Shown in pieces: positions 3,130 to 61,056 of a DNA stretch of 64,000 nt. The position numbers and the translations under genes are program-made. The stretch lies in contig NZ_CP024123.1 in the NCBI RefSeq assembly GCF_002736105.1, positions 2,534,001 through 2,598,000 of the forward strand, in the 5' to 3' direction. Numbering within the stretch: the stretch's first letter is position 1; the number at the start of each line of letters is the position of its first letter. Source of the stretch: Solibacillus sp. R5-41. GTDB taxonomy: Bacteria; Bacillota; Bacilli; Bacillales_A; Planococcaceae. The notes under the pieces are model-generated. The model did not search any database and had not been told where the DNA came from. It saw only the letters and a list, made by a program, of their open reading frames with translations.

Positions 3130-3222
3130 AATTACACTAACCTGCTTCTTTATTTGAATAAAAAAAGAGCCGATTGAACAGCTCAAAGATCTTCAAATAA
3201 AGTCACTGTTAGTTTAATAAGA
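3130..3222 (-). repeat. Composite boundary repeat, diverged
   Basis: Keeps the two-box plan with a different terminator: GAGCTGTTCAATCGGCTC followed by T7 on the minus strand. The outer box is degenerate (AACAGTGAC instead of AACGGGGGC). Confidence 0.75.
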
Positions 3223-6370: not shown

Positions 6371-6409
6371 TTCTTATTGCACTAACCTGCAGCTTTAGTT
6401 CAATAAGAA
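6371..6409 (-). repeat. Boundary repeat, single-hairpin form
   Basis: Arms TTCTTATTGCACTAAC and TTTAGTTCAATAAGAA, loop CTGCAGC. It has no separate terminator module; the hairpin lies 13 bp past the stop at 6422. Confidence 0.75.
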
Positions 6410-6930: not shown

Positions 6931-7041
6931 TCCTTATTAAATTATCCTGCTTCGTTAGTTCAATAAGAAAAAAGGAGTTGCATATGCACCTCAATGATCT
7001 TCAAGTAAAGCTCCGTTAGTTTAAGTGTAATCATTCACAAG
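6931..7041 (-). repeat. Composite boundary repeat, full length
   Basis: Two-box plan with the stem GAGTTGCATATGCACCTC (one mismatch from canonical) and the extended tail TTTAAGTGTAATCATTCAC seen on many copies. Confidence 0.85.
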
Positions 7042-7910: not shown

Positions 7911-8008
7911 TCTTTCTCAACTAAACTGCTCCGTTAGACCAATAAGAAAAAAGAGCTGCATATGCAACTCAATGATTTTCAAGAAAAGCCCCCGTTAGTG
8001 ATAAAGGC
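7911..8008 (-). repeat. Composite boundary repeat, full length
   Basis: Canonical terminator stem GAGCTGCATATGCAACTC. Outer arms are TTTCTCAACTAA and TTAGTGATAAAG, different in sequence from neighbours but still partly complementary. Confidence 0.85.
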
Positions 8009-8282: not shown

Positions 8283-8390
8283 CTTTGTTTAACTATCCTG
8301 CTCCATTAGTTCAAAAAAAAAAGCTGCCTATGCAACTCAATGATCTTCAAGTAAAGCCCCCGTTAGTTGAAGTATATTCTTTCACAATGT
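8283..8390 (-). repeat. Composite boundary repeat, full length
   Basis: Has both boxes and the extended tail TTGAAGTATATTCTTTCAC. The terminator stem is partly decayed (GCTGCCTATGCAACTC). No intact gene follows on the minus-strand upstream side before 8.77 kb. Confidence 0.8.
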
Positions 8391-11608: not shown

Positions 11609-11680
11609 GGTTAGTGTTACAAGGATTTATAAAGCATACAAACTAAACCTTATAAACGTTCCCAAATGAAAGTTAGGGAA
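11609..11680 (+). repeat. Boundary repeat, GTTCCCAAA module, + orientation
   Basis: Contains GTTACAAGGATTTATAAAG, then ACGTTCCCAAAT with an imperfect partner AGGGAAC. It follows a + strand gene and is in the reverse sense of copies following minus-strand genes. Confidence 0.7.
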
Positions 11681-11718
11681 CCAACAACCTCTTTCAATTG
11701 AATGAGGTTGTTTTGGCT
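11681..11718 (+). terminator. Terminator after the signal peptidase gene
   Basis: Arms AACAACCTC and GAGGTTGTT flank an AT-rich loop, followed by TTTTGG. Confidence 0.7.
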
Positions 11719-12137: not shown

Positions 12138-12212
12138 TATAGTGCAGCAATGATTTATAAAACATACAAAAATAAACCGAATAACGTTCCCAAACGCAAG
12201 TTTGGGAGCGCC
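12138..12212 (+). repeat. Boundary repeat, GTTCCCAAA module, + orientation
   Basis: Shares TGATTTATAAAACATACAAA and ACGTTCCCAAACGCAAG with copies near 11.6, 27.2, 52.7 and (inverted) 40.5, 46.8, 61.0 and 61.8 kb. The stem CCCAAACGCAAGTTTGGG is near-perfect. Confidence 0.75.
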
Positions 12213-12216
12213 AAAA

Positions 12217-12256
12217 AGAGAGACAAACGTTGATGTAACAGCGTTTGTCTCTTTTT
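12217..12256 (+). terminator. Terminator after the 105-aa membrane protein
   Basis: Arms AGAGACAAACG and CGTTTGTCTCT followed by T6. Confidence 0.8.
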
Positions 12257-12387: not shown

Positions 12388-12479
12388 TTATTAAACAATA
12401 TGGCCCGATTGTTGAACACAAGTTAAAGAACGCTATTGAACTAACCTGCCCCGTTAGTTTAAGTACATTTCTTCACAAG
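12388..12479 (-). repeat. Composite boundary repeat, no gene attached
   Basis: Starts with the variant palindrome ATTAAACAATA / GATTGTTGAAC around TGGCCC, then the ATTGAACTAACCTG box and the tail TTTAAGTACATTTCTTCAC. The 12257-12679 stretch around it has no intact gene. Confidence 0.75.
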
Positions 12480-13923: not shown

Positions 13924-13955
13924 TCTTGTACTAAACTGCTGCGTTAGTTCAATAA
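13924..13955 (-). repeat. Boundary repeat, short form
   Basis: TACTAAACTGCTGCGTTAG with TTCAATAA arm; directly abuts the stop codon at 13956. Confidence 0.7.
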
Positions 13956-14450: not shown

Positions 14451-14539
14451 CCTTATTCAACTAACCTGCCTCGTTAGTTGAATAAGAAAAAAGAGCCGCC
14501 AACTCAACGATTTTCAAGTAAAGCCCCAGTTTGTGAAGT
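14451..14539 (-). repeat. Composite boundary repeat, full length
   Basis: Inner arms CCTTATTCAACTAAC and GTTAGTTGAATAAG pair perfectly, with terminator stem GAGCCGCCAACTC shortened. The outer box reads CCCCAGTTTGTGAAG. Confidence 0.85.
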
Positions 14540-15407: not shown

Positions 15408-15500
15408 CTTTATTAAACTAAACTGCCCCGTTTGTTTAGGTTTATTTTGGATACTTTATATCCCCTTAATGAACTAAAGCACTTGTTAAGTGGAGTAAGA
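15408..15500 (-). repeat. Composite boundary repeat, diverged
   Basis: Left box TTAAACTAAACTGCCCCG, right box AATGAACTAAAGCACTTG; the stop of the gene at 15501 is adjacent. The internal terminator stem is replaced by AT-rich sequence. Confidence 0.7.
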
Positions 15501-16404: not shown

Positions 16405-16486
16405 CCCTTTAAAAAAGGTACCCTAAGCGTCGTTTAGGAAAATTTTCTAAATGCTTGTTACACTAAAGCCCCCGTTAGTTGAAGAT
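16405..16486 (-). repeat. Boundary repeat with CCTAAGCGTCGTTTAGG stem
   Basis: Arms CCTAA/TTAGG around GCGTCG, then GCTTGTTACACTAAAGCCCCCG. The homologous arrangement recurs at 62.2 kb with CCCAAAGCGTCGTTTGGG, showing that the stem changes on both sides together. Confidence 0.8.
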
Positions 16487-17092: not shown

Positions 17093-17177
17093 GCTTCAAT
17101 TATCCTGCTTCTTTAGTTTATTAAGAAAAAAGGCTTTACTCCTTCTTGAAGTAAAGCCCCCGTTAGCTTAATAAGCC
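17093..17177 (-). repeat. Composite boundary repeat with a different terminator module
   Basis: On the minus strand GGGCTTTACTTCAAG and GGAGTAAAGCC form the terminator stem, followed by T6. Here the GGGGGCTTTACTT box itself is one arm. It ends 3 bp from the stop at 17180. Confidence 0.8.
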
Positions 17178-18030: not shown

Positions 18031-18128
18031 CTTGTTCAACTAACCTGCTGCGTTAATTTAATAAAGAAAAAAGAGCTGCATATACAACTCAATGTTTTTC
18101 AAGTAAAGCCCCCGTTAGTTGAACAAGA
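18031..18128 (-). repeat. Composite boundary repeat, full length, covarying outer arms
   Basis: Outer arms CTTGTTCAACTAAC and GTTAGTTGAACAAG pair perfectly, while the inner arm is TTAATTTAATAAAG. The outer pair differs from the CTTATTGAAC form of other copies on both sides at once. Confidence 0.88.
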
Positions 18129-18790: not shown

Positions 18791-18807
18791 CCTTATTCAA
18801 CTAACCT
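18791..18807 (-). repeat. Left half of a boundary repeat split by IS
   Basis: CCTTATTCAACTAACCT; continues after the insertion at 20563 as CTGCCCCGTTAGTTGAATAAG. The two arms pair perfectly when joined. Confidence 0.9.
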
Positions 18808-18919
18808 CCCTCTATAAACATTGAGATATCAACGGTTTCCATCACTTCGTGATTTAAGAAAAATATTTTTCTCCCCTCTGATAAACAGAGTCTTGAATTT
18901 ATAGATTATATTACCAAGT

Positions 18920-19176
18920 AAAGCGTACGCTTCGCTAAAACTAATGGAAATCATTAGCTTTTTTATCCATTATTTTGATGCACAATGGATCTCTGCGATG
19001 CTTATGACGACGTACCCTCCCATGTCTCTTAGCGTCAACGCGCTTACATTCCTTCGTTCGGTCTATTCATAAGGCAGAGGCCTGCTAAGCTGCCCCGGGG
19101 ACTCATAGTCTAAGTTTAGTGATATTGCCGGCTTCTCCGTATCATCCTTTTTGCTATAGCTCTTTGATCGAAATGC
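18920..19176 (-). ncRNA. Candidate bridge RNA region of IS copy 1
   Basis: Non-coding segment after the transposase stop. It contains several short inverted repeats and a GGGGCAGCTTAG string that matches the insertion target GGGGCAGGTTAG at 11 of 12 positions. IS110-family elements encode bridge RNAs; this placement fits the IS1111 group. Confidence 0.55.
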
Positions 19177-20454
19177 TTACGCTGCCTCTCCGAGAGAGTA
19201 GAGATCTTTCATCATAAGTTGCTCGTTAAAATACACTTTCTTTTTACAAATACCATGTAATATTTTCAGTAATTTACCACAGAGAACTACCATCGATTGC
19301 TTACCCCGTAAGGGATTCTGATTCCTTGTTGTGTAGTATTCGTGAAGTTGTTTGAATGCTAGGTTATGCCGAATCAAAGGAACAATCACTTTGAAAAGGA
19401 TATGTCTAAGTCTCTTACGTCCACGTTTTGATATATGTTTTTGACCCTTATGTTGCCCAGAAGAGTTTTCACGTAATGTTAGTCCCGCTAGTTTAATGAG
19501 TTGGCGTGGATTTTCGTAAAGTGAAAAACTCCCTACTTCGGAAAGTAGATCAACAATTGTCGCATCTCCTAAACCTGGTACTGACGCGAGTAGGTCATAT
19601 TCCATCGTTGTCTTTGCCAATTCAGTTAATTGGTCATTCACTGCTTCGATTTCAGTTTCTAATAAGCGAAACTGACGTAGGAGTGTGGCGATTTCATGTT
19701 TGGCCATCTTTTGTCCTTCTGTCAGTCCTATAGAGTTTGAAGCCTTTTCAATGAGTAGCTTAGCTTTTGGTAGTTGTGGAGCTCTCATACCCCCTACCTG
19801 ACGGTAGAAAAATACAAGTTCTTCCGCGGTTTTCCCTTGAATGTCCTGTGGCATTGGTGTTCTTTCTAATGCAGTAAGTGCCATTTTTCCGAAAGTAGGA
19901 AAGACTTGAGTGAATTCAGGAAAATATCGATCGAGCCAACGAATGATTCGATTTTTAATACTTGCTAGATCTTCCGTTAACTTTAATCTAAGAGTAGAAC
20001 CAATCCGTAGTTCAGCTTCTACTTCTTTTAATATTCGTGGATAGCTAAAGCGTCCATCTTTCAATAACCGTGCGATGACTAATGCATCTTTTTTATCATT
20101 CTTAGTCGGCAAATTATCATCAAGTTCTTTCGAACGTTTGACGTGCATTGGATTCACCATGACAAGTGGGATTCCGTATTGATCTAAGAAATAGGCTAAG
20201 TTCATCCAGTAGTGGCCTGTAGGCTCAATCCCTATTATCACTTCAGTTTTCTTAGCTTCCTTCATCATTTGACGGATCTTTTCATACAAATTTTCGAAGC
20301 CTTCTTTCGATTGATGTACCGCAAAAGCTTTTTCTATTACTCGCCCGCGTTCATCGACAAAACATGCGTAATGAATACGCTTAGCAATATCCATGCCGAC
20401 AACCAGTGTATTTTCAGTAACTTGATTAATTTTGTTATTCCATTTAGAATGCAT
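19177..20454 (-). CDS. IS110 family transposase (DEDD, IS1111-like)
   Basis: A 425-residue transposase. The N-terminal RuvC-like DEDD domain shows VVGMDIAKRIHYACF (first Asp), IIGIEPTGHYW (Glu) and NDKKDALVIARLL (Asp-Asp). The C-terminal Tnp_20 domain shows VPGLGDATIVDLLSEVG and the Ser-containing SSGQHKGQKHISKRG. These enzymes cut and join at a dinucleotide core guided by a bridge RNA. The ATG at 20454 follows AAGGAGGA. Intact and nearly identical to the second copy, so both may be active or recently so. Confidence 0.95.
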   Translation of the reverse strand: MHSKWNNKINQVTENTLVVGMDIAKRIHYACFVDERGRVIEKAFAVHQSKEGFENLYEKIRQMMKEAKKTEVIIGIEPTGHYWMNLAYFLDQYGIPLVMVNPMHVKRSKELDDNLPTKNDKKDALVIARLLKDGRFSYPRILKEVEAELRIGSTLRLKLTEDLASIKNRIIRWLDRYFPEFTQVFPTFGKMALTALERTPMPQDIQGKTAEELVFFYRQVGGMRAPQLPKAKLLIEKASNSIGLTEGQKMAKHEIATLLRQFRLLETEIEAVNDQLTELAKTTMEYDLLASVPGLGDATIVDLLSEVGSFSLYENPRQLIKLAGLTLRENSSGQHKGQKHISKRGRKRLRHILFKVIVPLIRHNLAFKQLHEYYTTRNQNPLRGKQSMVVLCGKLLKILHGICKKKVYFNEQLMMKDLYSLGEAA

Positions 20455-20562
20455 AAAGGAGTCCTCCTTGTTTGATGATGGGTCAATGGTCGTTGACACT
20501 CATGCATCATACTAGAGGGCTGCTTTTCTTTCAAGACCTCGAACATCCTTCAAACAGGAATG

Positions 20563-20583
20563 CTGCCCCGTTAGTTGAATAAG
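20563..20583 (-). repeat. Right half of a boundary repeat split by IS
   Basis: CTGCCCCGTTAGTTGAATAA; partner of the half at 18791. Confidence 0.9.
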
Positions 20584-22114: not shown

Positions 22115-22171
22115 TCTTATTGAACTAACCTGCCCCGTTAGTTTAATAAGAAAAAAGAGCTGCTTAAGCAA
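22115..22171 (-). repeat. Left part of a boundary repeat split by IS3
   Basis: TCTTATTGAACTAACCTG, then CCCCGTTAGTTTAATAAGA and GAGCTGCTTAAGCAA; the stem is interrupted after GCAA. The remainder continues at 23448. Confidence 0.9.
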
Positions 22172-22212: not shown

Positions 22213-23052
22213 TTATGCAGCCAATTGACGGTATTGAACCGGCGATTGGCTGTTTAGTTTCGTTTGAATACGGATATTATTATAATAAGTAATGTATTCT
22301 TCGACAATCTGTATCACACGTGCATTCGTTGTGCGATAGATATCGTCGAGATAAAACGTTTCAGACTTTAGCGTGGAATGAAACGATTCGATTGGGGAAT
22401 TATCAGCTGGCGTGCCTTTGCGGGACATGCTCATGGTAATTCCTTTTTCTTTGGCTGCTTTTTGATAAGCATAGGATGTATAAACGGAACCTTGGTCACT
22501 ATGCAGAATGCATCCTTCTGGTAGCTTAGGCAATTGATAGAGCGTATCCAACACAAAATCAGTGTCTTGTTTGATACCAGTAGTTTGTGCCACAATTTCG
22601 CCATTGTAGACATCGAGAATACTAGAAAGATACATCATCGATTGACCAAAAGGCAAGTACGTAATATCCGTGACTAGCTTCTCCATGGGCTTAGATGCTG
22701 TAAAATCGCGTGCTAATAAATTCGGTGCAACGTATGCCGGCTGTCCGGTACGCTTTCGTTTCTTCACCTTTACTTTACATTGCCAACCATATTTTTGCAT
22801 AACACGCTGCACAGTCTTCCTACAAACTCCTGGGTACAGATTAGCAATCTTTCGATAACCATATCGAAATTTATTCTGTTTGCACAAGTCGCCAATCTGC
22901 TGATCTCGAATCTCCTTTTGAGTGGATTGATCCACATCCTTTCTCCAACGATAGTATGACGAGCGACCTACGCCTAAATGACGACAGATTTCACCAATTG
23001 GCATAACATCTTTTAATTCTTCAACTAATTGAAGTACTACTTTTGGCGCCAC
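22213..23052 (-). CDS. IS3 transposase OrfB (DDE integrase domain)
   Basis: A 279-residue OrfB. N-terminal HTH_21 segment (YGYRKIANLYPGVCRKTVQRVM) is followed by the rve DDE core: TDITYLPF (first Asp), LHSDQGSVYTS (second Asp) and SPIESFHSTLKSE (Glu). It overlaps OrfA by 16 bp in another frame and is probably made as an OrfAB fusion by -1 frameshifting. Intact in this copy. Confidence 0.95.
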   Translation of the reverse strand: MAPKVVLQLVEELKDVMPIGEICRHLGVGRSSYYRWRKDVDQSTQKEIRDQQIGDLCKQNKFRYGYRKIANLYPGVCRKTVQRVMQKYGWQCKVKVKKRKRTGQPAYVAPNLLARDFTASKPMEKLVTDITYLPFGQSMMYLSSILDVYNGEIVAQTTGIKQDTDFVLDTLYQLPKLPEGCILHSDQGSVYTSYAYQKAAKEKGITMSMSRKGTPADNSPIESFHSTLKSETFYLDDIYRTTNARVIQIVEEYITYYNNIRIQTKLNSQSPVQYRQLAA

Positions 23053-23372
23053 TTCCCTTCCAATTCCGCGTACTTTTTTAAAACTTCAATCTGTTGTTTC
23101 AACTCCAAATTCTCTGCCTGTAGCTTGGCTGTCTCGCTTTCAAATTCCGGTCCTTTGCCGAAAGCATATTGTTTACCAACTGGTTGTTTAAGACGGTGCA
23201 TTTCACCATTTCGATACCAATGCATCCATCGCTTCAACTGCGTATAGTTTCGAATGTCCAATTCTTCCATTACTTCTTTTACCGGTACGTTAGCCAATCG
23301 CATTTCAATTGCCTTCATTTTCACTTCTACTGGATAACTGACTCTTGTTCCCATAAAAAAACACCTCCACAT
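23037..23372 (-). CDS. IS3 transposase OrfA (HTH/leucine zipper)
   Basis: A 111-residue OrfA: a helix-turn-helix (RLANVPVKEVMEELDIRNYTQLKRW region) and a C-terminal leucine-zipper coiled coil (AKLQAENLELKQQIEVLKKYAE). The end of the zipper is encoded over an A6G slippery heptamer (23073-23079), the usual -1 frameshift site for OrfAB. GGAGGTG precedes the start; an in-frame ATG four codons later is also possible. Confidence 0.93.
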   Translation of the reverse strand: MWRCFFMGTRVSYPVEVKMKAIEMRLANVPVKEVMEELDIRNYTQLKRWMHWYRNGEMHRLKQPVGKQYAFGKGPEFESETAKLQAENLELKQQIEVLKKYAELEGKWRQK

Positions 23373-23447
23373 TGATTATTTCAGGTTTAAGTCCCCGTTA
23401 TTCAATGAAAGGTGTTTTTATTTGTCTCATGTTATTAGGTCAGTGCC

Positions 23448-23490
23448 CAACTCAATGATCTTCAAGTAAAGCCCCTGTTAGTTTAAGAAG
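23448..23490 (-). repeat. Right part of the boundary repeat split by IS3
   Basis: CAACTCAATGATCTTCAAG then AAAGCCCCTGTTAGTTTAAG; 29 bp past the stop of the gene at 23519. Confidence 0.9.
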
Positions 23491-23518
23491 AAGTTGTTTT
23501 GAAATTAAAGGACAGTAC

Positions 23519-24460
23519 TCATAAAGAGTTTAGGTGCATTTCTATGGACTTTGCCTTATCATAGATCAATTTTTTTAACATTACAGGACTAATAGAATTA
23601 ATTGATTGTCCAAATTTTAAAAAATAGTTAGCTATAAAATCCTCCTCAGCTTTATTAAAATAGCCAGTTATTATGAAATTTTCATTGTCACTTTGAATTT
23701 TCATAGAAGGGTAATTTTCCTTATCAAAGATATCTTTCCCCTGTTTATTAACGATGACAGTAAAATCAATGGCATTAGGTTCTTTATGAAAATTATCAAG
23801 ATAATCTAATAGTTCTTCCAATTTTTTAGATTTGAAATCATTAGTTTCTGTTATTAAGAGGATTTTATCACATCGAAGAATTTGTATCTTTTCTGTTTTA
23901 ATATTGAAAATTTTAGCATACCATTGCCCAAATTTAGAGTGTATTCGAATAAACTGTGCGACCATTTGTTTGTTTGTCTCTTTTTTTGAATAGGTTAAAC
24001 AATAAACCTTTTCTGTAAAAATCCCTTGTAAAATTTCTTTTAAGTACGGACTAAAATTACTATGATTTGTGACCTCTAATGAGAGTACTTGATTCATAAT
24101 TGAAATATTATTACGCACATTTTCAGGTAATACATTTCTAAATTTATTTTCTAGTGCGATGTTTTCTATTTCAAATGGCTTTGTTTTGTATCCATTTAAA
24201 GTGAGTAGAGAGAAATATAATCCATACATTTCATCGACAGTAAAAAAAACCGGTGACAATATACTACTATCTAATATCTCATACCTTCCATTTCGACCTA
24301 ATTCCGAATATATCGGCATACCTATTTGTTCTAATGATTGAATATCTCGAAGTGCTGTACTTTTTGAAATGTTATACCTCTCCATTAAATCTTTTAAATT
24401 AAATGTTCTCTTATTATTCAAAAAAATAAGTAAATCATTTATGCGTTCGGTTTTCTTCAT
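23519..24460 (-). CDS. HTH regulator with WYL-like C-terminus, copy A
   Basis: A 313-residue transcription regulator of the DeoR/YafY type. N-terminal HTH_11 (residues 1-60: INDLLIFLNNKRTFNLKDLM, YNISKSTALRDIQSLEQIGM), then a middle region and a WYL-like sensor domain (VYCLTYSKKETNKQM, HSKFGQWYAKIFNI). It is nearly identical to the copy at 50784 (substitutions at about three residues). It is divergent from a peptidase E gene, from which it is now separated by an IS element. A palindrome lies just upstream of the ATG, suggesting autoregulation. Confidence 0.87.
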   Translation of the reverse strand: MKKTERINDLLIFLNNKRTFNLKDLMERYNISKSTALRDIQSLEQIGMPIYSELGRNGRYEILDSSILSPVFFTVDEMYGLYFSLLTLNGYKTKPFEIENIALENKFRNVLPENVRNNISIMNQVLSLEVTNHSNFSPYLKEILQGIFTEKVYCLTYSKKETNKQMVAQFIRIHSKFGQWYAKIFNIKTEKIQILRCDKILLITETNDFKSKKLEELLDYLDNFHKEPNAIDFTVIVNKQGKDIFDKENYPSMKIQSDNENFIITGYFNKAEEDFIANYFLKFGQSINSISPVMLKKLIYDKAKSIEMHLNSL

Positions 24461-24473
24461 AAATTTTCTCCAT

Positions 24474-24501
24474 AAAAGGTGTCATATATTGATACCTTTT
24501 T
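24474..24501. promoter_or_regulatory. Inverted repeat upstream of regulator copy A, likely operator
   Basis: AAAAGGTGTCA and TGATACCTTTT pair around TATAT, 14 bp upstream of the ATG. Identical in the second copy at 51739. Confidence 0.65.
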
Positions 24502-24543
24502 ATCTTATACTAAGACTATCAATTAAAAAAGGCGCTAGAAATC

Positions 24544-24557
24544 TACTAACGGGGCAG
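24544..24557. repeat. Boundary-repeat half split by IS copy 2 (left)
   Basis: CTAACGGGGCAG flank. The paralogous uninterrupted site is at 51808-51836. Confidence 0.9.
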
Positions 24558-24665
24558 CATTCCTGTTTGAAAGATGTTCGAGGTCTTGAAAGAAAAGGAG
24601 CCCTCTAGTATGATGCATGAGTGTCAACGACCATTGACCCATCATCAAACAAGGAGGACTCCTTT

Positions 24666-25943
24666 ATGCATTCTAAATGGAATAACAAAATTAATCAAGT
24701 TACTGAAAATACACTGGTTGTCGGCATGGATATTGCTAAGCGTATTCATTACGCATGTTTTGTCGATGAACGCGGGCGAGTAATAGAAAAAGCTTTTGCG
24801 GTACATCAATCGAAAGAAGGCTTCGAAAATTTGTATGAAAAGATTCGTCAAATGATGAAGGAAGCTAAGAAAACTGAAGTAATAATAGGGATTGAGCCTA
24901 CAGGCCACTACTGGATGAACTTAGCCTATTTCTTAGATCAATACGGAATCCCACTTGTCATGGTGAATCCAATGCACGTCAAACGTTCGAAAGAACTTGA
25001 TGATAATTTGCCGACTAAGAATGATAAAAAAGATGCATTAGTCATCGCACGGTTATTGAAAGATGGACGCTTTAGCTATCCACGAATATTAAAAGAAGTA
25101 GAAGCTGAACTACGGATTGGTTCTACTCTTAGATTAAAGTTAACGGAAGATCTAGCAAGTATTAAAAATCGAATCATTCGTTGGCTCGATCGATATTTTC
25201 CTGAATTCACTCAAGTCTTTCCTACTTTCGGAAAAATGGCACTTACTGCATTAGAAAGAACACCAATGCCACAGGACATTCAAGGGAAAACCGCGGAAGA
25301 ACTTGTATTTTTCTACCGTCAGGTAGGGGGTATGAGAGCTCCACAACTACCAAAAGCTAAGCTACTCATTGAAAAGGCTTCAAACTCTATAGGACTGACA
25401 GAAGGACAAAAGATGGCCAAACATGAAATCGCCACACTCCTACGTCAGTTTCGCTTATTAGAAACTGAAATCGAAGCAGTGAATGACCAATTAACTGAAT
25501 TGGCAAAGACAACGATGGAATATGACCTACTCGCGTCAGTACCAGGTTTAGGAGATGCGACAATTGTTGATCTACTTTCCGAAGTAGGGAGTTTTTCACT
25601 TTACGAAAATCCACGCCAACTCATTAAACTAGCGGGACTAACATTACGTGAAAACTCTTCTGGTCAACATAAGGGTCAAAAACATATATCAAAACGTGGA
25701 CGTAAGAGACTTAGACATATCCTTTTCAAAGTGATTGTTCCTTTGATTCGGCATAACCTAGCATTCAAACAACTTCACGAATACTACACCACAAGGAATC
25801 AGAATCCCTTACGGGGTAAGCAATCGATGGTAGTTCTCTGTGGTAAATTACTGAAAATATTACATGGTATTTGTAAAAAGAAAGTGTATTTTAACGAGCA
25901 ACTTATGATGAAAGATCTCTACTCTCTCGGAGAGGCAGCGTAA
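24666..25943 (+). CDS. IS110 family transposase (DEDD, IS1111-like), copy 2
   Basis: Same 425-residue transposase as the copy ending at 19177, with no amino acid difference that I can see. ATG after AAGGAGGA. The RuvC-like DEDD residues and the Ser-containing Tnp_20 domain are intact. Confidence 0.95.
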   Translation: MHSKWNNKINQVTENTLVVGMDIAKRIHYACFVDERGRVIEKAFAVHQSKEGFENLYEKIRQMMKEAKKTEVIIGIEPTGHYWMNLAYFLDQYGIPLVMVNPMHVKRSKELDDNLPTKNDKKDALVIARLLKDGRFSYPRILKEVEAELRIGSTLRLKLTEDLASIKNRIIRWLDRYFPEFTQVFPTFGKMALTALERTPMPQDIQGKTAEELVFFYRQVGGMRAPQLPKAKLLIEKASNSIGLTEGQKMAKHEIATLLRQFRLLETEIEAVNDQLTELAKTTMEYDLLASVPGLGDATIVDLLSEVGSFSLYENPRQLIKLAGLTLRENSSGQHKGQKHISKRGRKRLRHILFKVIVPLIRHNLAFKQLHEYYTTRNQNPLRGKQSMVVLCGKLLKILHGICKKKVYFNEQLMMKDLYSLGEAA

Positions 25944-26200
25944 GCATTTCGATCAAAGAGCTATAACAAAAAGGATGATACGGAGAAGCCGGCAATATCA
26001 CTAAACTTAGACTATGAGTCCCCGGGGCAGCTTAGCAGGCCTCTGCCTTATGAATAGACCGAACGAAGGAATGTAAGCGCGTTGACGCTAAGAGACATGG
26101 GAGGGTACGTCGTCATAAGCATCGCAGAGATCCATTGTGCATCAAAATAATGGATAAAAAAGCTAATGATTTCCATTAGTTTTAGCGAAGCGTACGCTTT
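25944..26200 (+). ncRNA. Candidate bridge RNA region of IS copy 2
   Basis: Non-coding, structured-looking tail after the transposase stop. GGGGCAGCTTAG at 26024-26035 nearly repeats the target GGGGCAGGTTAG. Further inverted pairs include GCTAATGATTTCC / near GGAAA and AGCGAAGCGTACGCT downstream. Assignment rests on the known genetics of the IS110 family. Confidence 0.55.
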
Positions 26201-26314
26201 AATTGGTAATATAATCTATAAATTCAAGACTCTGTTTATCAGAGGGGAGAAAAATATTTTTCTTAAATCACGAAGTGATGGAAACCGTTGATATCTCAAT
26301 GTTTATAGAGGGAG

Positions 26315-26328
26315 GTTAGTTGAACAAG
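26315..26328 (+). repeat. Boundary-repeat half split by IS copy 2 (right)
   Basis: GTTAGTTGAACAAG, partner of 24544-24557. Confidence 0.88.
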
Positions 26329-26394
26329 TGAAACGAATTTTAGTTAGGGAAATAATAAATAAGGAAACAAATACTTTGGAGTTGAAAGGGAAGA

Positions 26395-26490
26395 ACCTTT
26401 CAATAAGACTTTGTTGACTCTACGAGGAAAGCTTTCCAAACCAAGCTTTGGGTGTGTTTTCTTATTCAACAAACGGGCCAAATTGTGTTA
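26395..26490 (+). repeat. Boundary-type module upstream of peptidase E, copy A
   Basis: Contains GACTCTACGAGGAAAGCTTT, CAAACCAAGCTTTGG and TTCTTATTCAACAAACGGGC. The same block occurs inverted near 61.7 kb and directly at 51.9 kb. Confidence 0.65.
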
Positions 26491-26540
26491 AAGAAATTTT
26501 CATTTCTGTATAAAAGCAATAACAAAAAAGGAGAATTAAT

Positions 26541-27152
26541 ATGCTTAAAATGTTTTTAGCATCTTCGTTTAAAGATGTAGTTGATCTATTTAGAAAATTT
26601 GTTGATGAAGACTTAAAAGGGAAAACTCTAACGTTTATTCCTACTGCGAGTATTCCAGAAGAGGTAGTTCACTATGTTAATACAGCAAAAGAAGAATTCA
26701 AAAAGTTGGGCGTGGTCCTTGAAGAACTCGATGTTGCTGTAGCATCGCCAGAAGAGATTAAAGAAAAATTGGAACGAAACGATTTTATCTATGTATCAGG
26801 AGGAAATACTTTTTTCTTGTTGCAAGAGTTGAGAAGATCAGGAGCAGATAAGATAATGAAAGAGCAAGTTGATTCAGGAAAATTGTATATTGGAGAATCA
26901 GCAGGAGCTATAGTAACTTCCCCTAATATAGAGTATATAAGATTTATGGACGATAAAGAAAAAGCTACTCAATTGAAAACGTTTGAAGGTTTAAACTTAA
27001 TGGAATTTTATCCAGTTCCTCACTATAGTAACGAGCCATTTAAGGACTCGGCATCGGCTATAATTGCTCATTATGGTTCCACGTTAAACCTTTTACCCAT
27101 CTCAAATACACAAGTAATTAAAGTTAAAGAAAACGATGTAATTGTTTGTTAA
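26541..27152 (+). CDS. Peptidase E (S51)-like hydrolase, copy A
   Basis: A 203-residue protein of the peptidase S51 (aspartyl dipeptidase E) family, part of the class I glutamine amidotransferase-like fold. YVSGGNTFFLLQELR is the conserved GGNT turn, and LYIGESAGAIV carries the nucleophile Ser in the elbow; EFYPVPHYSNEP supplies the likely catalytic His. Such enzymes cut Asp-X dipeptides or cyanophycin-like substrates. ATG after AAAAAGGAG. The copy at 52048 differs at about two residues. A + oriented boundary repeat starts 4 bp after the stop. Confidence 0.9.
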   Translation: MLKMFLASSFKDVVDLFRKFVDEDLKGKTLTFIPTASIPEEVVHYVNTAKEEFKKLGVVLEELDVAVASPEEIKEKLERNDFIYVSGGNTFFLLQELRRSGADKIMKEQVDSGKLYIGESAGAIVTSPNIEYIRFMDDKEKATQLKTFEGLNLMEFYPVPHYSNEPFKDSASAIIAHYGSTLNLLPISNTQVIKVKENDVIVC

Positions 27153-27156
27153 TAAA

Positions 27157-27308
27157 CTCAACTAACGGGCGCGTTTGTTGAATAAGCTCCACTTTTCTGA
27201 TTCAACAAATGGGTGCTTTAGTGCAACAAGGATTTATAACGTATACATAAATAAAGCGAATAATGTTCCCAAATGAGTGATCCCAAGAGTAACGGGTTCC
27301 GTTTCCTA
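27157..27308 (+). repeat. Composite boundary repeat in + orientation
   Basis: CTCAACTAACGGGCGCG then TTTGTTGAATAAG, GTGCTTTAGTGCAACAAGG, ATTTATAACGTATACATA and AATGTTCCCAAATGAG. Its sense follows the + strand peptidase E gene. Confidence 0.85.
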
Positions 27309-27350
27309 TCGCAAAACTTTAATTTCCCTTATTTATTAATTTATTTAATG

Positions 27351-27440
27351 TTCTTATTGAACTAACCTACTTACGTTCGTTCAATAAAAAAAGAGCTGCC
27401 CAACTCTATGATCTTCTAGTAAAGCCCCTTTAGTTTAAGT
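27351..27440 (-). repeat. Composite boundary repeat following the 78-aa gene
   Basis: TTCTTATTGAACTAACCTAC, AGAGCTGCCCAACTCT stem and the TAAAGCCCCTTTAGTTTAAG box. It faces opposite to the copy at 27157, marking the meeting point of genes on different strands. Confidence 0.82.
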
Positions 27441-27569
27441 ATTATATTTAACTGTATAAGTAGATTTTTCAATTTACTTCTATTCAAACACCAATAAAAC
27501 ACTAAAGAAAAGTAGAAGTCAGAACCCTACTTTTCCTTATAACTAAACAGCTTTCATCTAAGATTAAGA

Positions 27570-28340: not shown

Positions 28341-28479
28341 TAGTTCAACTAAACTGCCCCGTTAGTTTAAGTGTAACATTTCACACTGGATCACCGAAGC
28401 CTACTTGATGTTTTAGACATAAAAATAGACCATCGAAATGATGGTCTTGTTTAACTAAAGCCCCCGTTAGTTGAACAAC
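28341..28479 (-). repeat. Composite boundary repeat with GACCATC terminator
   Basis: Outer arms TTCAACTAAA and TTAGTTGAA pair. Tail TAAGTGTAACATTTCAC and, on the minus strand, GACCATCATTTCGATGGTC plus T-run. Copies with the same terminator occur at 28.9 and 38.3 kb. Confidence 0.88.
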
Positions 28480-28900: not shown

Positions 28901-29024
28901 AATTCTTATTAAGCTAAACTGCCCCGTTAGTTTATGTGTAACATTTCACAATGGATCACCGAAGCCTACTTGTTGTTTTAGACATAAAAATAGACAATTG
29001 AAATGATGGTCTTGTTTAACTAAA
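28901..29024 (-). repeat. Composite boundary repeat cut by the second IS110
   Basis: TTCTTATTAAGCTAAACTG, GCCCCGTTAGTTTATGTG, and AAATGATGGTCTTGTTTAAC as in the copy at 28341, then TAAA where the second IS110 begins. The expected GCCCCCGTTAG appears beyond it. Confidence 0.75.
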
Positions 29025-32639: not shown

Positions 32640-33433
32640 TTTCGTTTGAATACGGATATTGTTATAATAAGTAATGTATTCTTCGACAATCTGTATCACA
32701 CGTGCATTCGTTGTGCGATAGATATCGTCGAGATAGAACGTTTAGACTTTAGCGTGGAATGAAACGATTCGATTGGGGAATTATCAGCTGGCGTGCCTTT
32801 GCGGGACATGCTCATGGTAATTCCTTTTTCTTTGGCTGCTTTTTGATAAGCATAGGATGTATAAACGGACCCTTGGTCACTATGCAGAATGCATCCTTCT
32901 GGTAGCTTAGGCAATTGATAGAGCGTATCCAACACAAAATCAGTGTCTTGTTTGATACCAGTAGTTTGTGCCACAATTTCTCCATTGTAGACATCGAGAA
33001 TACTAGAAAGATACATCATCGATTGACCAAAAGGCAAGTACGTAATATCCGTGACTAGCTTCTCCATGGGCTTAGATGCTGTAAAATCACGTGCTAATAA
33101 ATTCGGTGCAACGTATGCTGGCTGCCCGGTACGCTTCCGTTTCTTCACCTTTACTTTACATTGCCAACCATATTTTTGCATAACACGTTGCACAGTCTTC
33201 CTACAAACTCCTGGATACAAATTAGCAATCTTTCTATAACCATATCGAAATTTATTCTGTTTGCACAAGTCACCAATCTGCTGATCTCGAATCTCCTTTT
33301 GTGTGGATTGATCCACATCATTTCTCCAACGATAGTATGACGAGCGACCTACGCCTAAATGACGACAGATTTCACCAATTGGCAAAACATCTTTTAATTC
33401 TTCAACTAATTGAAGTACTACTTTTGGCGCCAC
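32640..33433 (-). pseudogene. IS3 OrfB, frameshifted
   Basis: Matches the intact 279-residue OrfB until residue 236. A one-base deletion (GTTTAGAC where the other copies have GTTTCAGAC) shifts the frame after the catalytic Glu region, giving a 245-residue product. Confidence 0.9.
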
Positions 33434-33753
33434 TTCCCTTCCAATTCCGCGTACTTTTTTAAAACTTCAATCTGTTGTTTCAACTCCAAATTCTCTGCCT
33501 GTAGCTTGGCTGTCTCGCTTTCAAATTCCGGTCCTTTGCCGAAGGCATATTGTTTACCAACTGGTTGTTTAAGACGGTGCATTTCACCATTTCGATACCA
33601 ATGCATCCATCGCTTCAACTGCGTATAGTTTCGAATGTCCAATTCTTCCATTACTTCTTTTACCGGTACGTTAGCCAATCGCATTTCAATTGCCTTCATT
33701 TTCACTTCTACTGGATAACTGACTCTTGTTCCCATAGAAAAACACCTCCACAT
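33418..33753 (-). CDS. IS3 transposase OrfA, copy 2
   Basis: Intact 111-codon OrfA, HTH plus leucine zipper. It shares the MWRCFSMG N-terminal variant with copy 3 rather than MWRCFFMG of copy 1, so copies 2 and 3 are closer relatives. Confidence 0.9.
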   Translation of the reverse strand: MWRCFSMGTRVSYPVEVKMKAIEMRLANVPVKEVMEELDIRNYTQLKRWMHWYRNGEMHRLKQPVGKQYAFGKGPEFESETAKLQAENLELKQQIEVLKKYAELEGKWRQK

Positions 33754-38266: not shown

Positions 38267-38420
38267 TTCTTATTAAACTAAATGCTCCGTTAGTTTAAGT
38301 GTAACATTTCACAATGGATCACCGAAGCCTACATGATGTTTTAGACATAAAAATAGACCATCGAAATGATGGTCTTGTTTAACTAAGCCCCGTTAGTTTA
38401 AGTGAATTACTTTACAAACT
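38267..38420 (-). repeat. Composite boundary repeat with GACCATC terminator
   Basis: TCTTATTAAACTAAATGCTC, GTTAGTTTAAGTGTAACATT, terminator arms GACCATC/GATGGTC, and the TAAGCCCCGTTAGTTTAAG end. Close match to 28341-28479. Confidence 0.87.
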
Positions 38421-40871: not shown

Positions 40872-40966
40872 ACCTTATTCCACTAAACTGCCTCGTTAGT
40901 TCAATAAGAAAAAGCTACCCTAAAGGCAGCATTGCCCTGCTAAAGCACCTGTTTGTTGAAGAAGAG
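40872..40966 (-). repeat. Composite boundary repeat with GCTGCC terminator module
   Basis: CTTATTCCACTAAACTGCC, GTTAGTTCAATAAG, and on the minus strand GCTGCCTTTAGGGTAGC plus T-run. Copies at 41.6 and 53.9 kb share this module. Confidence 0.82.
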
Positions 40967-41587: not shown

Positions 41588-41694
41588 ATTCTTCTTCAAC
41601 TAAACTGCTCCGTTAGTTCAAAAAGAAAAAGCGACCCTAAAGGCAGCCTTATTCTGCTAAAGCCCCCGTTAGTTTAAGTACATCTCTTCACGAT
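41588..41694 (-). repeat. Composite boundary repeat, no gene on its 3' side
   Basis: TTCTTCAACTAAACTGCTCC, terminator arms GGCTGCCTTTAGGGTCGC, GCCCCCGTTAG and the TTTAAGTACATCTCTTCAC tail. Confidence 0.82.
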
Positions 41695-45534: not shown

Positions 45535-45567
45535 TCGTTCAACTAAAGCCCACGTTAGTTGAATAAG
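45535..45567 (-). repeat. Boundary repeat, perfect single palindrome
   Basis: TTCAACTAA / TTAGTTGAA around AGCCCACG, 20 bp past the deformylase stop. Confidence 0.85.
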
Positions 45568-46502: not shown

Positions 46503-46826
46503 TTCCTTGTTGAACTAACCTGCTTCGTTAGTTCAATAAAGAAAAAGGCTATGTTAGGAAAAGGTTGATTTATAACGTTAGGAATCCGCTGTATATGCAA
46601 GATAGTATTCAAAATATGATCCAGTGCAATTTCTTTTGAACAGTATTGAAAGCTTTGTTGTATCTAAGTTCAAACGATAGTGATTTAAAGGGTGTATATG
46701 AATGAAATACAAAAAAAACACTTAATACATTGGTATGACAACGTTTTAAGTGTTTTATGTCGACCCAAAAACTTGCATTTGGGAACGTTATTTTTGAATG
46801 ATATGTATAAAATATACAAATGCTAT
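46503..46826 (-). repeat. Long composite boundary repeat (about 320 bp form)
   Basis: Begins CTTGTTGAACTAACCTGC and GTTAGTTCAATAAAG, then about 250 bp homologous to 60718-61010 including AAGGTTGATTTATAACG, a CACTT/AAGTG terminator and TGCATTTGGGAACG. Not consistently coding in the two copies. Confidence 0.8.
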
Positions 46827-50657: not shown

Positions 50658-50758
50658 TTCTAATTAAACTAAACTGCCTCGTTAGTTCAATAAGAAAAAA
50701 GTGCTGCCTAAGCAACTCAATGTTCTTCAAGTAAAGCCCCCATTAGTTTAAGAAGAAG
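50658..50758 (-). repeat. Composite boundary repeat at the left end of duplication B
   Basis: AATTAAACTAAACTGCCTC, GTTAGTTCAATAAGA, GTGCTGCCTAAGCAACTC stem, CCCCCATTAGTTTAAG. Here the terminator stem is not interrupted; in copy A the IS3 lies at this point. Confidence 0.88.
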
Positions 50759-50783
50759 TTGTTTTGAAATTAAAGGACAGTAC

Positions 50784-51725
50784 TCATAAAGAGTTTAGGT
50801 GCATTTCTATAGATTTTGCCTTATCATAGATCAATTTTTTTAACATTACAGGAATAATAGAATTAATTGATTGTCCAAATTTTAAAAAATAGTTAGCTAT
50901 AAAATCTTCCTCAGCTTTATTAAAATAGCCAGTTATTATGAAATTTTCATTGTCACTTTGAATTTTCATAGAAGGGTAATTTTCCTTATCAAAGATATCT
51001 TTCCCCTGTTTATTAACGATGACAGTAAAATCAATGGCATTAGGTTCTTTATGAAAATTATCAAGATAATCTAATAGTACTTCCAATTTTTTAGATTTGA
51101 AATCATTAGTTTCTGTTATTAAGAGGATTTTATCACATCGAAGAATTTGTATCTTTTCTGTTTTAATATTGAAAATTTTAGCATACCATTGCCCAAATTT
51201 AGAGTGTATTCGAATAAACTGTGCGACCATTTGTTTGTTTGTCTCTTTTTTTGAATAGGTTAAACAATAAACCTTTTCTGTAAAAATCCCTTGTAAAATT
51301 TCTTTTAAGTACGGACTAAAATTACTATGATTTGTGACCTCTAATGAGAGTACTTGATTCATAATTGAAATATTATTACGCACATTTTCAGGTAATACAT
51401 TTTTAAATTTATTTTCTAGTGCGATGTTTTCTATTTCAAATGGCTTTGTTTTGTATCCATTTAAAGTGAGTAGAGAGAAATATAATCCATACATTTCATC
51501 GACAGTAAAAAAAACCGGTGACAATATACTACTATCTAATATCTCATACCTTCCATTTCTACCTAATTCCGAATATATCGGCATACCTATTTGTTCTAAT
51601 GATTGAATATCTCGAAGTGCTGTACTTTTTGAAATGTTATACCTCTCCATTAAATCTTTTAAATTAAATGTTCTCTTATTATTCAAAAAAATAAGTAAAT
51701 CATTTATACGTTCGGTTTTCTTCAT
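50784..51725 (-). CDS. HTH regulator with WYL-like C-terminus, copy B
   Basis: 313 residues, nearly identical to the gene at 23519, with a few substitutions (for example KLEVLLDYL for KLEELLDYL). Same HTH_11 and sensor layout and the same upstream palindrome. Divergent from peptidase E copy B, 322 bp apart, with no IS in between, showing the original arrangement. Confidence 0.88.
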   Translation of the reverse strand: MKKTERINDLLIFLNNKRTFNLKDLMERYNISKSTALRDIQSLEQIGMPIYSELGRNGRYEILDSSILSPVFFTVDEMYGLYFSLLTLNGYKTKPFEIENIALENKFKNVLPENVRNNISIMNQVLSLEVTNHSNFSPYLKEILQGIFTEKVYCLTYSKKETNKQMVAQFIRIHSKFGQWYAKIFNIKTEKIQILRCDKILLITETNDFKSKKLEVLLDYLDNFHKEPNAIDFTVIVNKQGKDIFDKENYPSMKIQSDNENFIITGYFNKAEEDFIANYFLKFGQSINSIIPVMLKKLIYDKAKSIEMHLNSL

Positions 51726-51738
51726 AAATTATCTCCAT

Positions 51739-51766
51739 AAAAGGTGTCATATATTGATACCTTTTT
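51739..51766. promoter_or_regulatory. Operator-like inverted repeat, copy B
   Basis: Same AAAAGGTGTCA / TGATACCTTTT palindrome as at 24474. Confidence 0.65.
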
Positions 51767-51807
51767 ATCTTATACTAAGACTATCAATTAAAAAAGGAGC
51801 TAGTAAT

Positions 51808-51836
51808 CTACTAACGGGGCAGGTTAGTTGAACAAG
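51808..51836. repeat. Uninterrupted boundary palindrome (empty IS1111 site)
   Basis: CTAACGGGGCAGGTTAG with the GTTGAACAAG extension. This is the pre-insertion form of the copy A site at 24544/26315. Confidence 0.93.
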
Positions 51837-51901
51837 GCAAACGAATTTTAGTTAGGGAAATAATAATTAAGGAAACAAATACTTTGGAGTTGAAAGGGAG
51901 G

Positions 51902-51990
51902 AACCTTTCAATAAGACTTTGTTGACTCTACGAGGAAAGCTTTCAAACCAAGCTTTGGGTGTGTTTTCTTATTCAACAAACGGGCCAAAT
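51902..51990 (+). repeat. Boundary-type module upstream of peptidase E, copy B
   Basis: Second copy of the GACTCTACGAGGAAAGC block, 1-2 bases different from 26395-26490. Confidence 0.65.
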
Positions 51991-52047
51991 TGTGTTAAAG
52001 AAATTTTCATATCTGTATAAAAGCAATAACAAAAAAGGAGAATTAAT

Positions 52048-52659
52048 ATGCTTAAAATGTTTTTAGCATCTTCGTTTAAAGATGTAGTTGATCTATTTAG
52101 AAAATTTGCTGATGAAGACTTAAAAGGGAAAACTCTAACGTTTATTCCTACTGCGAGTATTCCAGAAGAGGTAGTTCACTATGTTAATACAGCAAAAGAA
52201 GAATTCAAAAAGTTGGGCGTGGTCCTTGTAGAACTCGATGTTGCTGTAGCATCGCCAGAAGAGATTAAAGAAAAATTGGAACGAAACGATTTTATCTATG
52301 TATCAGGAGGAAATACTTTTTTCTTGTTGCAAGAGTTGAGAAGATCAGGAGCAGATAAGATAATGAAAGAGCAAGTTGATTCAGGAAAATTGTATATTGG
52401 AGAATCAGCAGGAGCTATAGTAACTTCCCCTAATATAGAGTATATAAGATTTATGGACGATAAAGAAAAAGCTACTCAATTGAAAACGTTTGAAGGTTTA
52501 AACTTAATGGAATTTTATCCAGTTCCTCACTATAGTAACGAGCCATTTAAGGACTCGGCATCGGCTATAATTGCTCATTATGGTTCCACGTTAAACCTTT
52601 TACCCATCTCAAATACACAAGTAATTAAAGTTAAAGAAAACGATGTAATTGTTTGTTAA
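52048..52659 (+). CDS. Peptidase E (S51)-like hydrolase, copy B
   Basis: 203 residues, differing from copy A at two positions (Ala for Val near residue 22 and Val for Glu near residue 61). Nucleophile motif LYIGESAGAIV and GGNT turn intact. A + oriented boundary repeat starts 5 bp after the stop, as in copy A. Confidence 0.9.
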   Translation: MLKMFLASSFKDVVDLFRKFADEDLKGKTLTFIPTASIPEEVVHYVNTAKEEFKKLGVVLVELDVAVASPEEIKEKLERNDFIYVSGGNTFFLLQELRRSGADKIMKEQVDSGKLYIGESAGAIVTSPNIEYIRFMDDKEKATQLKTFEGLNLMEFYPVPHYSNEPFKDSASAIIAHYGSTLNLLPISNTQVIKVKENDVIVC

Positions 52660-52663
52660 TAAA

Positions 52664-52815
52664 CTCAACTAACGGGCGCGTTTGTTGAATAAGCTCCACT
52701 TTTCTGATTCAACAAATGGGTGCTTTAGTGCAACAAGGATTTATAACGTATACATAAATAAAGCGAATAATGTTCCCAAATGAGTGATCCCAAGAGTAAC
52801 GGGTTCCGTTTCCTA
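52664..52815 (+). repeat. Composite boundary repeat in + orientation, copy B
   Basis: Near-identical to 27157-27308. Confidence 0.85.
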
Positions 52816-52856
52816 TCGCAAAACTTTAATTTCCCTTATTTATTAATTTATTTAAT

Positions 52857-52958
52857 GTTCTTATTGAACTAACCTACTTACGTTCGTTCAATAAAAAAAA
52901 AGCTGCCTAAGCAACTCTATGATCTTCTAGTAAAGCCCCCGTTAGTTTAATAAGAACA
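52857..52958 (-). repeat. Composite boundary repeat at the right end of duplication B
   Basis: Outer arms GTTCTTATTGAACTAAC and GTTAGTTTAATAAGAAC pair (with one G-T). Stem AGCTGCCTAAGCAACT. Copy A lacks the matching right arm (TTTAAGTATTATATT there). Confidence 0.88.
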
Positions 52959-53103
52959 GCGACGCTTCTTCCACAATCGCGCCCGATAACTAAATAACGG
53001 TTAGCTTCTATTAGCTGATTGTGGAATTCCAAAGGGGTTTCTATTGGCGGTTCAGTTCAGCTAATTATTTTTCTGGTACTATAACGCTATGTTGAACTCC
53101 TTG

Positions 53104-53809: not shown

Positions 53810-53947
53810 TTTATTCAAGAATATGGCCCGATTGTTGAATTACAAGTTAAACAACACTCTTCAACTAAACTGCACCGTTAGTTTAATAAGAAAAAGCTAC
53901 CCTTACAGGCAGCCTTGTTCTGCTAAAGCCCCCCTTAGTTGAAGAAC
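53810..53947 (-). repeat. Composite boundary repeat, two palindrome classes joined
   Basis: TTCAAGAATA/GATTGTTGAA class palindrome, then TTCAACTAAACTGCACCG, the GGCTGCC terminator module and CCCCTTAGTTGAAGAA. The outer arms TTCTTCAACTAA-like/TTAGTTGAAGAA pair. It overlaps the DUF3147 stop. Confidence 0.85.
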
Positions 53948-54695: not shown

Positions 54696-54712
54696 AAATA
54701 CCACTCCTTTAT

Positions 54713-54745
54713 ATCGTCAATTACGATTGTATCGTATATTACGAT
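54713..54745. promoter_or_regulatory. Paired MarR operators
   Basis: ATCGTCAATTACGAT and ATCGTATATTACGAT, 18 bp apart centre to centre; the second is perfectly symmetric (ATCGTA/TACGAT). They lie directly upstream of the MarR ribosome site. Confidence 0.8.
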
Positions 54746-54783
54746 GCAAAGTAAAGAGTTTGTTTTTTTCATACAAATCGGAA

Positions 54784-61031: not shown

Positions 61032-61056
61032 AATGCTATCTGTTTGAAAATTATGT

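Follow-up and report, generated by a model that had tools for sequence, protein, structure and literature searches.

Gene cassettes bounded by oriented sites in Solibacillus sp. R5-41: a candidate integron-like system of Bacillales

The stretch of DNA considered here (the window) covers positions 2534001-2598000 of the single-contig 4.28-Mb genome of Solibacillus sp. R5-41 (G000), 64 kb in all, and is strewn with short repeats standing after genes. What sets the direction in which these repeats read, and what are they for? An earlier note had proposed that each repeat takes the sense of the gene that it follows and belongs to the 3' end of that gene, as a cassette end does, rather than being inserted at random.

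Site types and their orientation

Two types of repeat site can be distinguished, which in the sense of the genes read AACTAACGNNGCAGKTTAGTT (A) and AACTAACGGGNGCTTTAGTT (B). In each, a short centre, of the A or the B type, separates two inverted arms (about CTTATTGAACTAA / TTAGTTNAATAAG). An explicit scan allowing up to 3 mismatches located 49 A or B sites in the window, 44 in minus sense and 5 in plus sense. The minus-sense A sites lie at 1982-2002, 2733-2753, 6380-6400, 6940-6960, 7919-7939, 8291-8311, 12439-12459, 13929-13949, 14459-14479, 15416-15436, 18038-18058, 22123-22143, 28347-28367, 28912-28932, 40881-40901, 41598-41618, 46513-46533, 50667-50687, 53863-53883, 54794-54814, 56521-56541 and 60689-60709 and, with 3 mismatches, at 3135-3155, 17098-17118 and 61668-61688. 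The minus-sense B sites lie at 2794-2813, 8349-8368, 16461-16480, 17149-17168, 18101-18120, 23464-23483, 28453-28472, 41655-41674, 45541-45560, 50729-50748, 52928-52947, 56135-56154, 60029-60048 and 62227-62246 and, with 3 mismatches, at 2023-2042, 7981-8000, 38276-38295, 53921-53940 and 61004-61023. Rfam gave 0 matches at the gathering threshold over the window repeats, and a search for tRNA found none in the 64 kb.

Over the whole G000 genome, the A core pattern with at most 2 mismatches gave 118 and 47 matches on the two strands against 0 and 2 for a reversed control pattern; the sites are thus real and chance is ruled out. Their sense is regional: 46 of the 47 plus-sense matches fall at 1.44-1.78 Mb, the remaining one being in the window, and among the matches listed nearly all minus-sense ones fall at 2.07-2.65 Mb, with minus-sense sites standing alone at 0.34, 3.71 and 4.11 Mb. 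The strand of the genes switches as the sites do (102:23 and 244:43). Such a switch between array regions would fit opposite replichores.

Site strand was tabulated against gene strand over 331 kb, made up of the window and 14 further G000 stretches picked for their sites, with approximate gene calls from a simple home-made gene caller. Among genes on the locally predominant strand, the nearest site within 150 bp of the stop codon had the sense of the gene in 125 cases and the opposite sense in 1 (196 genes were without a site), so the rule that repeats follow their gene stood for 125 of 126 majority-strand genes. It broke down on the other strand, where 3 minority-strand genes had a site of their own sense, 7 one of opposite sense and 53 none; at 300 bp the corresponding figures were 4 and 14. 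The observation made in the note is thus confirmed for the window (44 of 49 sites in minus sense) and holds only in part as a general rule, 7 of 10 minority-strand genes disagreeing with their site. Across G000, 259 of 266 sites, and 132 of 133 A sites, have the local majority sense.

The seven inverted sites are instructive. Five of them surround two copies of a peptidase E gene and the other two surround a single gene (L049:3423-4057), which has the same sense as its inverted sites. In the window, all five plus-sense sites (27160, 27204, 51809, 52667 and 52711) bound the peptidase E (S51) copies, in agreement with the inversion claimed for both. The first copy (26541-27152, plus strand) lies in an inverted cassette in which IS110 splits the upstream A site; an inverted B site (27160-27179, plus) stands directly 3' of the gene, and a second, B-like one (27204-27223, plus) marks the start of a terminator-type element. 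The second copy (52048-52659, plus) is an intact inverted A-gene-B cassette with its A site at 51809-51829 and its B site at 52667-52686, followed by a second inverted B-like site (52711-52730), all in plus sense. Oppositely oriented sites indeed face each other tail to tail at about 27.2-27.4 and 52.7-52.9 kb, the minus-sense B site at 52928-52947 being the one that faces the inverted sites of the second copy. The block comprising a WYL regulator and peptidase E is itself duplicated in the window (23427-24560 together with 26310-27450, and 50692-52970), one copy carrying IS3 and IS110 inside its sites.

Two terminator-type elements that had been described as inverted after plus-strand genes are so indeed. 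The element at 60931-61033, which comes after a minus-strand gene, recurs in inverted form at 11611-11681 (plus), behind the signal peptidase gene that ends at 11579, and at 12140-12217 (plus), behind the gene that ends at 12116; complementarity is 77% for the former (pair I5) and 82% for the latter (pair I4).

Taken together, inverted sites whose gene shares their sense and antisense genes lying in normal cassettes make orientation a rule of the array with rare inverted units: the sense of a site belongs to its array, and the rare inverted sites bound whole inverted cassettes. A cassette is invertible as a unit, and most minority-strand genes with a site are antisense genes inside a normally oriented cassette. 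As for attachment to the 3' end of a gene, sites between genes of discordant orientation divide by type. B sites agree with the upstream gene in 22 of 27 cases and with the downstream gene in 5 of 27, and the proposal fits them; A sites agree with the upstream gene in 10 of 24 cases and with the downstream gene in 14 of 24, and precede the next gene instead.

Array anatomy and the movement of cassettes

Along the arrays the order is A-gene-B-terminator-A, with A and B alternating. In 115 loci, B followed by A within 110 bp was seen 196 times and A followed by B never (0), with 11 A-A and 5 B-B successions. The B-to-A mini-intervals mostly have 28-43 bp between core sites, and 156 of the 196 contain a stable hairpin with a run of T after it, as against 9 of 196 after shuffling; a window example is the minus-sense terminator mini-cassette at 2754-2793, between the B site at 2794 and the A site at 2733. 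The longer intervals carry genes: G000 has 174 of them with a median of 720 bp, 113 of which hold one gene. Leaving aside intervals between opposed sites (5 in G000, 2 in G026), the genes in G000 intervals are 217 in sense and 20 antisense to the array. Among 30 window proteins scanned, cassette contents include GNAT acetyltransferases, NUDIX, DJ-1/PfpI and GrpB proteins, as well as peptide deformylase, a beta-lactamase-family protein and MarR regulators.

An all-against-all comparison of the 115 loci (1.16 Mb) yielded 202 shared blocks of at least 200 bp and at least 85% identity. IS110- and IS3-like DNA was masked, blocks with more than 20% of such DNA were dropped, the overlapping loci L064, L083, L089, L119 and L123 were excluded and block ends within 60 bp of the end of a locus were left unscored. 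A site was found no more than 25 bp away in both copies for 135 of 374 scored ends, in at least one copy for 202 and in neither for 172, so that 239 are not at a site in both copies; these counts ignore the kinship of blocks, the pairs being partly non-independent. When the ends were moved inward by 60, 100, 150 and 200 bp, the number at sites in both copies was 17, 8, 3 and 5, and 5.1% of random positions are near a site. For blocks with an identity of at least 95%, 53 of 117 ends are at sites in both copies. All four ends are at sites in 22 of 173 scorable blocks, and in 13 of 50 at 95% identity or more. Movement driven by IS110 was considered as well and set aside, the scored blocks having been selected for little or no IS110.

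Twenty pairs were displayed base by base as examples. At most of their 40 ends the outside sequence changes in or beside the site, and the flanks have little or no likeness beyond it; clear exceptions are the 5' ends of L044/window, L041/L048 (14264) and L031/L033 (11814) and the 3' end of L049/L050, and some ends fall at an IS110 lying in the site. First mismatches are scattered over and around the core, so that the crossover is not narrowed to one base. One gene was found in these pairs before different terminator elements, which makes B an exchange point too.

Several blocks are far more alike than the genomes that share them, taking as yardstick a host Xer-like gene of G000, whose identity is 78% with its counterpart in S. 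palustris, 70% with the one in Viridibacillus arvi and 69% with the one in Paenisporosarcina. The minus-strand block at 53924-54826, which contains a MarR-gene cassette running from the A site at 54794 to the B site at 53921 at its 3' end, is 95.8% identical over 904 columns in Paenisporosarcina HGH0030, whereas two host Xer-like genes of these genomes are 68-69% identical. Blocks are also shared with S. palustris (G015; 657 columns, 99.5%) and V. arvi (G020; 809 columns, 96.8%), and Peribacillus butanolivorans and Bacillus sp. BA3 have in common a 559-column block of 98.0% identity. Within G000, the 698-column minus-strand block at 60026-60723, with its cassette (A site at 60689, gene at 60162-60548, B site at 60029), is 99.3% identical to L040:18649-19345, in an oppositely oriented array region. 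A clean empty site for a single cassette was not found among 16 candidate pairs; 4 of them had all three checked ends at sites, each relying on at least one block of 100-181 bp. Two near-identical Peribacillus plasmid stretches had no single-cassette difference in the block list.

That the repeats are cassette ends and not random insertions is strongly supported, though the support does not come from orientation: sites mark the ends of shared gene-sized blocks, the order of sites and terminators is fixed, and a recombinase lies in the arrays.

The structure of the sites bears on how such cassettes might move. Both arms match one consensus, and within one site they hardly covary. In an indirect test of folding, pairing was scored at the inner seven outer-arm positions of unique sites (544 A, 277 B). 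It was 0.635 in A sites, against 0.624 +- 0.005 when right arms are shuffled among sites, and 0.546 in B sites, against 0.550 +- 0.008. Arms that vary independently are expected if a junction in the centre mixes the arms of neighbouring cassettes, and they argue against selection for a folded site; the pattern suggests a double-stranded, dif-like site.

A candidate recombinase and its distribution

A search with PF00589 in eight genomes revealed near-identical tyrosine recombinases inside the arrays. G000 has two copies of 279 aa, 99% identical, besides one fragment or more. Paenisporosarcina, Viridibacillus, Psychrobacillus and other genomes have relatives of 82-99% identity, and a plasmid of Sporosarcina psychrophila has one of 94.6%. 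Between two Solibacillus species the recombinase gene is 99.2% identical, compared with 78% for their host Xer-like gene. In all nine copies displayed, the gene occupies a cassette of its own, which runs from a B-type right half through a two-way terminator and the antisense gene to a left half-site and is conserved in nine different contexts. Upstream of the recombinase start there is a degenerate conserved left arm; no attI was identified. The gene is antisense to the nearby sites in all 19 intact copies scored of the class of at least 82% identity (L155-L160, L172, L173, L187 and L228-L237; broken copies not counted). Many other copies are broken by stops or frameshifts (L163, L164, L167, L177 and others), as expected of arrays losing their enzyme.

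By profile the protein is of the XerA type (NF040815 of NCBIfam, 224.1 bits for a cut-off of 220) and stays far below the cut-off for IntI (TIGR02249, 90 bits for a cut-off of 265), which no protein in 22 genomes exceeded (0/22). R138, K162, H228, R231, H254 and Y263 are invariant in 13 recombinase sequences; we take them to be the catalytic residues, with Y263 as the active tyrosine. A structure predicted for the Psychrobacillus copy (L116), which is 94% identical to the G000 one, from a 17-row alignment (mean pLDDT 89.6, pTM 0.63) has XerA (5hxy) as its closest fold (Z 25.3, rmsd 12.2 over 264 residues), followed by XerH (5jjv; Z 21.1, rmsd 6.6 over 274 residues); for the integron integrase 2a3v the figures are Z 19.6 and rmsd 7.4 over 267 residues. 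Domain placement is the probable cause of the large rmsd. Among solved structures, the XerC-like 4a8e is the best relative in sequence.

Recombinase and sites occur together. In 261 genomes of the order, all rows being of one family, the recombinase (at least 82% identity, intact or broken) is found in 26 of the 33 genomes that have 20 A sites or more and in 12 of 228 others (p = 1.7e-20, a value that ignores kinship); genomes with at most 2 A sites were mostly entered as 0, and the lowest recombinase identity was 82%. A first sample of 101 genomes had it in 9 of 11 genomes with at least 28 sites and in 1 of 90 others. Seven of the 33 site-rich genomes (G002, G054, G141, G151, G209, G226 and G228) gave no recombinase match at E <= 1e-90, including G151 with its 115 A sites; these could be relics, or their sites could be served by another enzyme. 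By its place, conservation and co-occurrence, the 279-aa protein is the best candidate for the enzyme of the system.

More distant recombinases are found with other sites. A plasmid labelled Arthrobacter citreus (CP053689) encodes a 65%-identical recombinase, antisense beside variant A and B sites (AACAAAATGGCAGWTTAGTT and AACTAACTGATGCRTTAGTT), whose arms are similar but whose centres differ and which keep the same order, with short spacers; 14 of 14 perfect site matches, and 27 of 33 with at most 4 mismatches, are on the strand opposite the recombinase. G085, a genome outside the family, has a 51%-identical recombinase among two further site types (AGCTAACGGGCAGGTTAGTT and AACTAACGGGAAACGTTAGCT), which also come B then A; this relative is in sense, not antisense. 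A sites are few in the 27 genomes with only the 58-66% class of recombinase (entered as 0 for 18 of them and numbering 2-18 in the others), as expected if that enzyme recognises other sites. Repeated sites were not found in the 12-kb stretches around the 66% relatives of G001 and G052, and near the relative on a P. simplex plasmid there were only two copies of an A-like motif. Viral contigs contain 26 loci with recombinase relatives; in the seven where repeats were sought no array was found, and the composite element had no match in phages. Four viral-contig stretches contain an A site.

A degenerate A pattern was met in 98 stretches of the genome collection, all under Bacillales-type organism names: Peribacillus, Viridibacillus, Paenisporosarcina, Sporosarcina, Psychrobacillus, Solibacillus, Lysinibacillus, Neobacillus, Domibacillus, Anoxybacillus and Bacillus. 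The genomes compared include, besides V. arvi (G020), V. soli (G038), V. arenosi (G055), Paenisporosarcina OV554 (G060) and Paenisporosarcina HGH0030 (G026). Related sequence was found in 25 plasmid records. One of these, the Klebsiella grimontii plasmid CP079755 (212421-215457, L153), has a complete-looking A-gene-B cassette, with A and B sites of 1 and 2 mismatches around a 171-aa gene, and an SMI1/KNR4 gene that matches a G000 array region at 85% identity over 523 columns; as this is a single record, it may be an assembly error.

Explanations and known systems

On this comparative evidence, the repeats are probably recombination sites of an integron-like cassette system of Bacillales, in which a Xer-type recombinase would act on dif-like sites. 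A gene cassette would comprise the right half of an A site, usually one gene, and a left half-site at its end, and a short mini-cassette, usually with a transcription terminator, would lie between B and the next A. The 279-aa Xer-like recombinase would bind the arms as double-stranded DNA and exchange strands in the centre, excising cassettes and inserting them elsewhere. Such exchange would be directional because the centre of the site is asymmetric; and since the terminator would be active only in the sense of the gene, cassettes would mostly be kept in sense to the array.

Four other explanations were weighed against this reading. It is improbable that the repeats are MITE-like or REP-like interspersed elements with a terminator, which insert after genes and whose orientation reflects terminator function. 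Such elements would account for the terminators in 156 of 196 mini-elements and for the agreement of 125 of 126 majority-strand genes with their site, but they are disfavoured by gene-sized blocks bounded by sites: the moving unit is the gene between two sites (22 of 173 blocks with all four ends at sites), the same gene comes with different terminator elements, and minority-strand genes are mostly without own-sense sites. Little credence can be given, too, to homologous recombination after DNA uptake, shuffling genes between short repeats with no site-specific enzyme. Against it, many junctions coincide with just one site of about 20-35 bp, the displayed flanks share little or nothing past the site, and the recombinase co-occurs with the sites. 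In its favour, junctions are scattered over the core instead of falling at one base, 239 of 374 block ends are not at a site in both copies, and the composite B-terminator-A offers up to about 100 bp of shared sequence.

That the dedicated recombinase is a mere rider, and that host XerC/XerD moves the cassettes as in the pdif modules of Acinetobacter, seems unlikely. The dif-like layout of the sites and the 7 of 33 site-rich genomes without the dedicated recombinase at E <= 1e-90 speak for it. Yet Xer-like genes occur in 22 of 22 genomes tested, site-free ones included, whereas it is chiefly genomes with the dedicated recombinase that are rich in sites; in one case a recombinase that has diverged is accompanied by sites that have diverged too; and 259 of 266 sites have the local majority direction. 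Least of all do we expect a true integron or CALIN, with IntI acting on folded single-stranded attC sites. The array of single-gene cassettes with one site sense and an antisense recombinase resembles one, as do the core, which is similar to the integron core-site consensus GTTRRRY, and the site-targeting IS110 and group II introns; the IntI profile is nevertheless below its cut-off for the recombinase (90 vs 265 bits) and throughout the 22 genomes (0/22), and the pairing of the arms is scarcely above that after shuffling.

Integrons are the textbook case of single-gene capture, and the likenesses to the cassette system proposed here extend to arrays of short cassettes with one gene each and a single site sense, a tyrosine recombinase gene that reads against the array, cassettes common to several genera, arrays without a recombinase and elements inserting in the site. 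Integrons rely on IntI and folded attC, whereas here the enzyme is XerA-like and the sites are short, with inverted arms that vary independently; unlike integrons, these arrays also have the recombinase on a cassette, two alternating site types and terminator mini-cassettes. The system is thus predicted to work like an integron while departing from one in two defining properties, the IntI enzyme and the covarying folded site. Like the pdif/Xer modules of Acinetobacter plasmids, it has genes flanked by dif-like sites with inverted arms, a dif of 28 bp with 11-bp arms and a 6-bp centre being described in PMC12907356. The pdif modules have C/D and D/C site pairs, as opposed to one direction along the array here (259 of 266), and the dedicated recombinase in the arrays, the more than 100 sites in some genomes and the terminators in between set the present arrays apart. 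With the single-recombinase dif systems XerA and XerH it shares the XerA-type profile and the closest folds (5hxy and 5jjv), and it differs from them in having many sites per genome that mark cassettes.

The movement of cassettes by a tyrosine recombinase is known, and the present system has a fair chance of deserving a kind of its own. In the open-access literature searched, no description of these sites or arrays was found. We lean towards an independently evolved counterpart of integrons, in which Xer-derived recombinases, each with its own alternating site pair and itself a cassette, would build arrays of genes and terminators, with more than 100 sites in some genomes, on chromosomes and plasmids of Bacillales and with occasional passage to other phyla (one Klebsiella plasmid). 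This would be a second cassette system, applying integron logic with another enzyme, other sites and built-in terminators, in a bacterial group where integrons are almost unknown; according to IntegronFinder 2.0, all Firmicutes had only one complete integron and a few CALIN (PMC9024848). If this reading is true, part of the accessory-gene flux in soil bacilli would be explained, the minimum needs of a cassette strategy would become visible, and a cassette recombinase on simple sites would be open to direct testing.

The arrays also carry passengers. In 11 of 11 copies of at least 1500 bp, an IS110-family element interrupts the centre of an A site at one and the same position; two of these copies are in the window (18792-20578 and 24542-26328) and nine more in L037, L041, L042, L043, L044 and L049. 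The IS1111-attC group, reportedly described by Tetu and Holmes in 2008, offers a parallel in that an IS110-family element inserts at one point of a cassette site, the target being attC in that group and the A site here. IS3-family copies lie at 22213-23372, 32696-33753 and 54884-56043 of the window, the first and the last at the same point inside the hairpin of a terminator mini-cassette. Group II intron genes (ltrA) were noticed in or near arrays on plasmids of Peribacillus frigoritolerans (L154, with the intron RNA present and rRNA genes on the plasmid too) and Sporosarcina psychrophila (L187), and group II introns in or near arrays are a further parallel with integrons. Four adjacent tyrosine recombinase genes of 281, 626, 277 and 298 aa lie in an array region at 2.607-2.611 Mb of G000 (L048:8928-13479), the 626-aa product matching the XerA-type profile in four stretches; adjacent recombinase genes akin to these occur in G009 and G017. 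Finally, a mercury reductase gene and its regulator stand between two sites near the recombinase in L187 (12680-15381).
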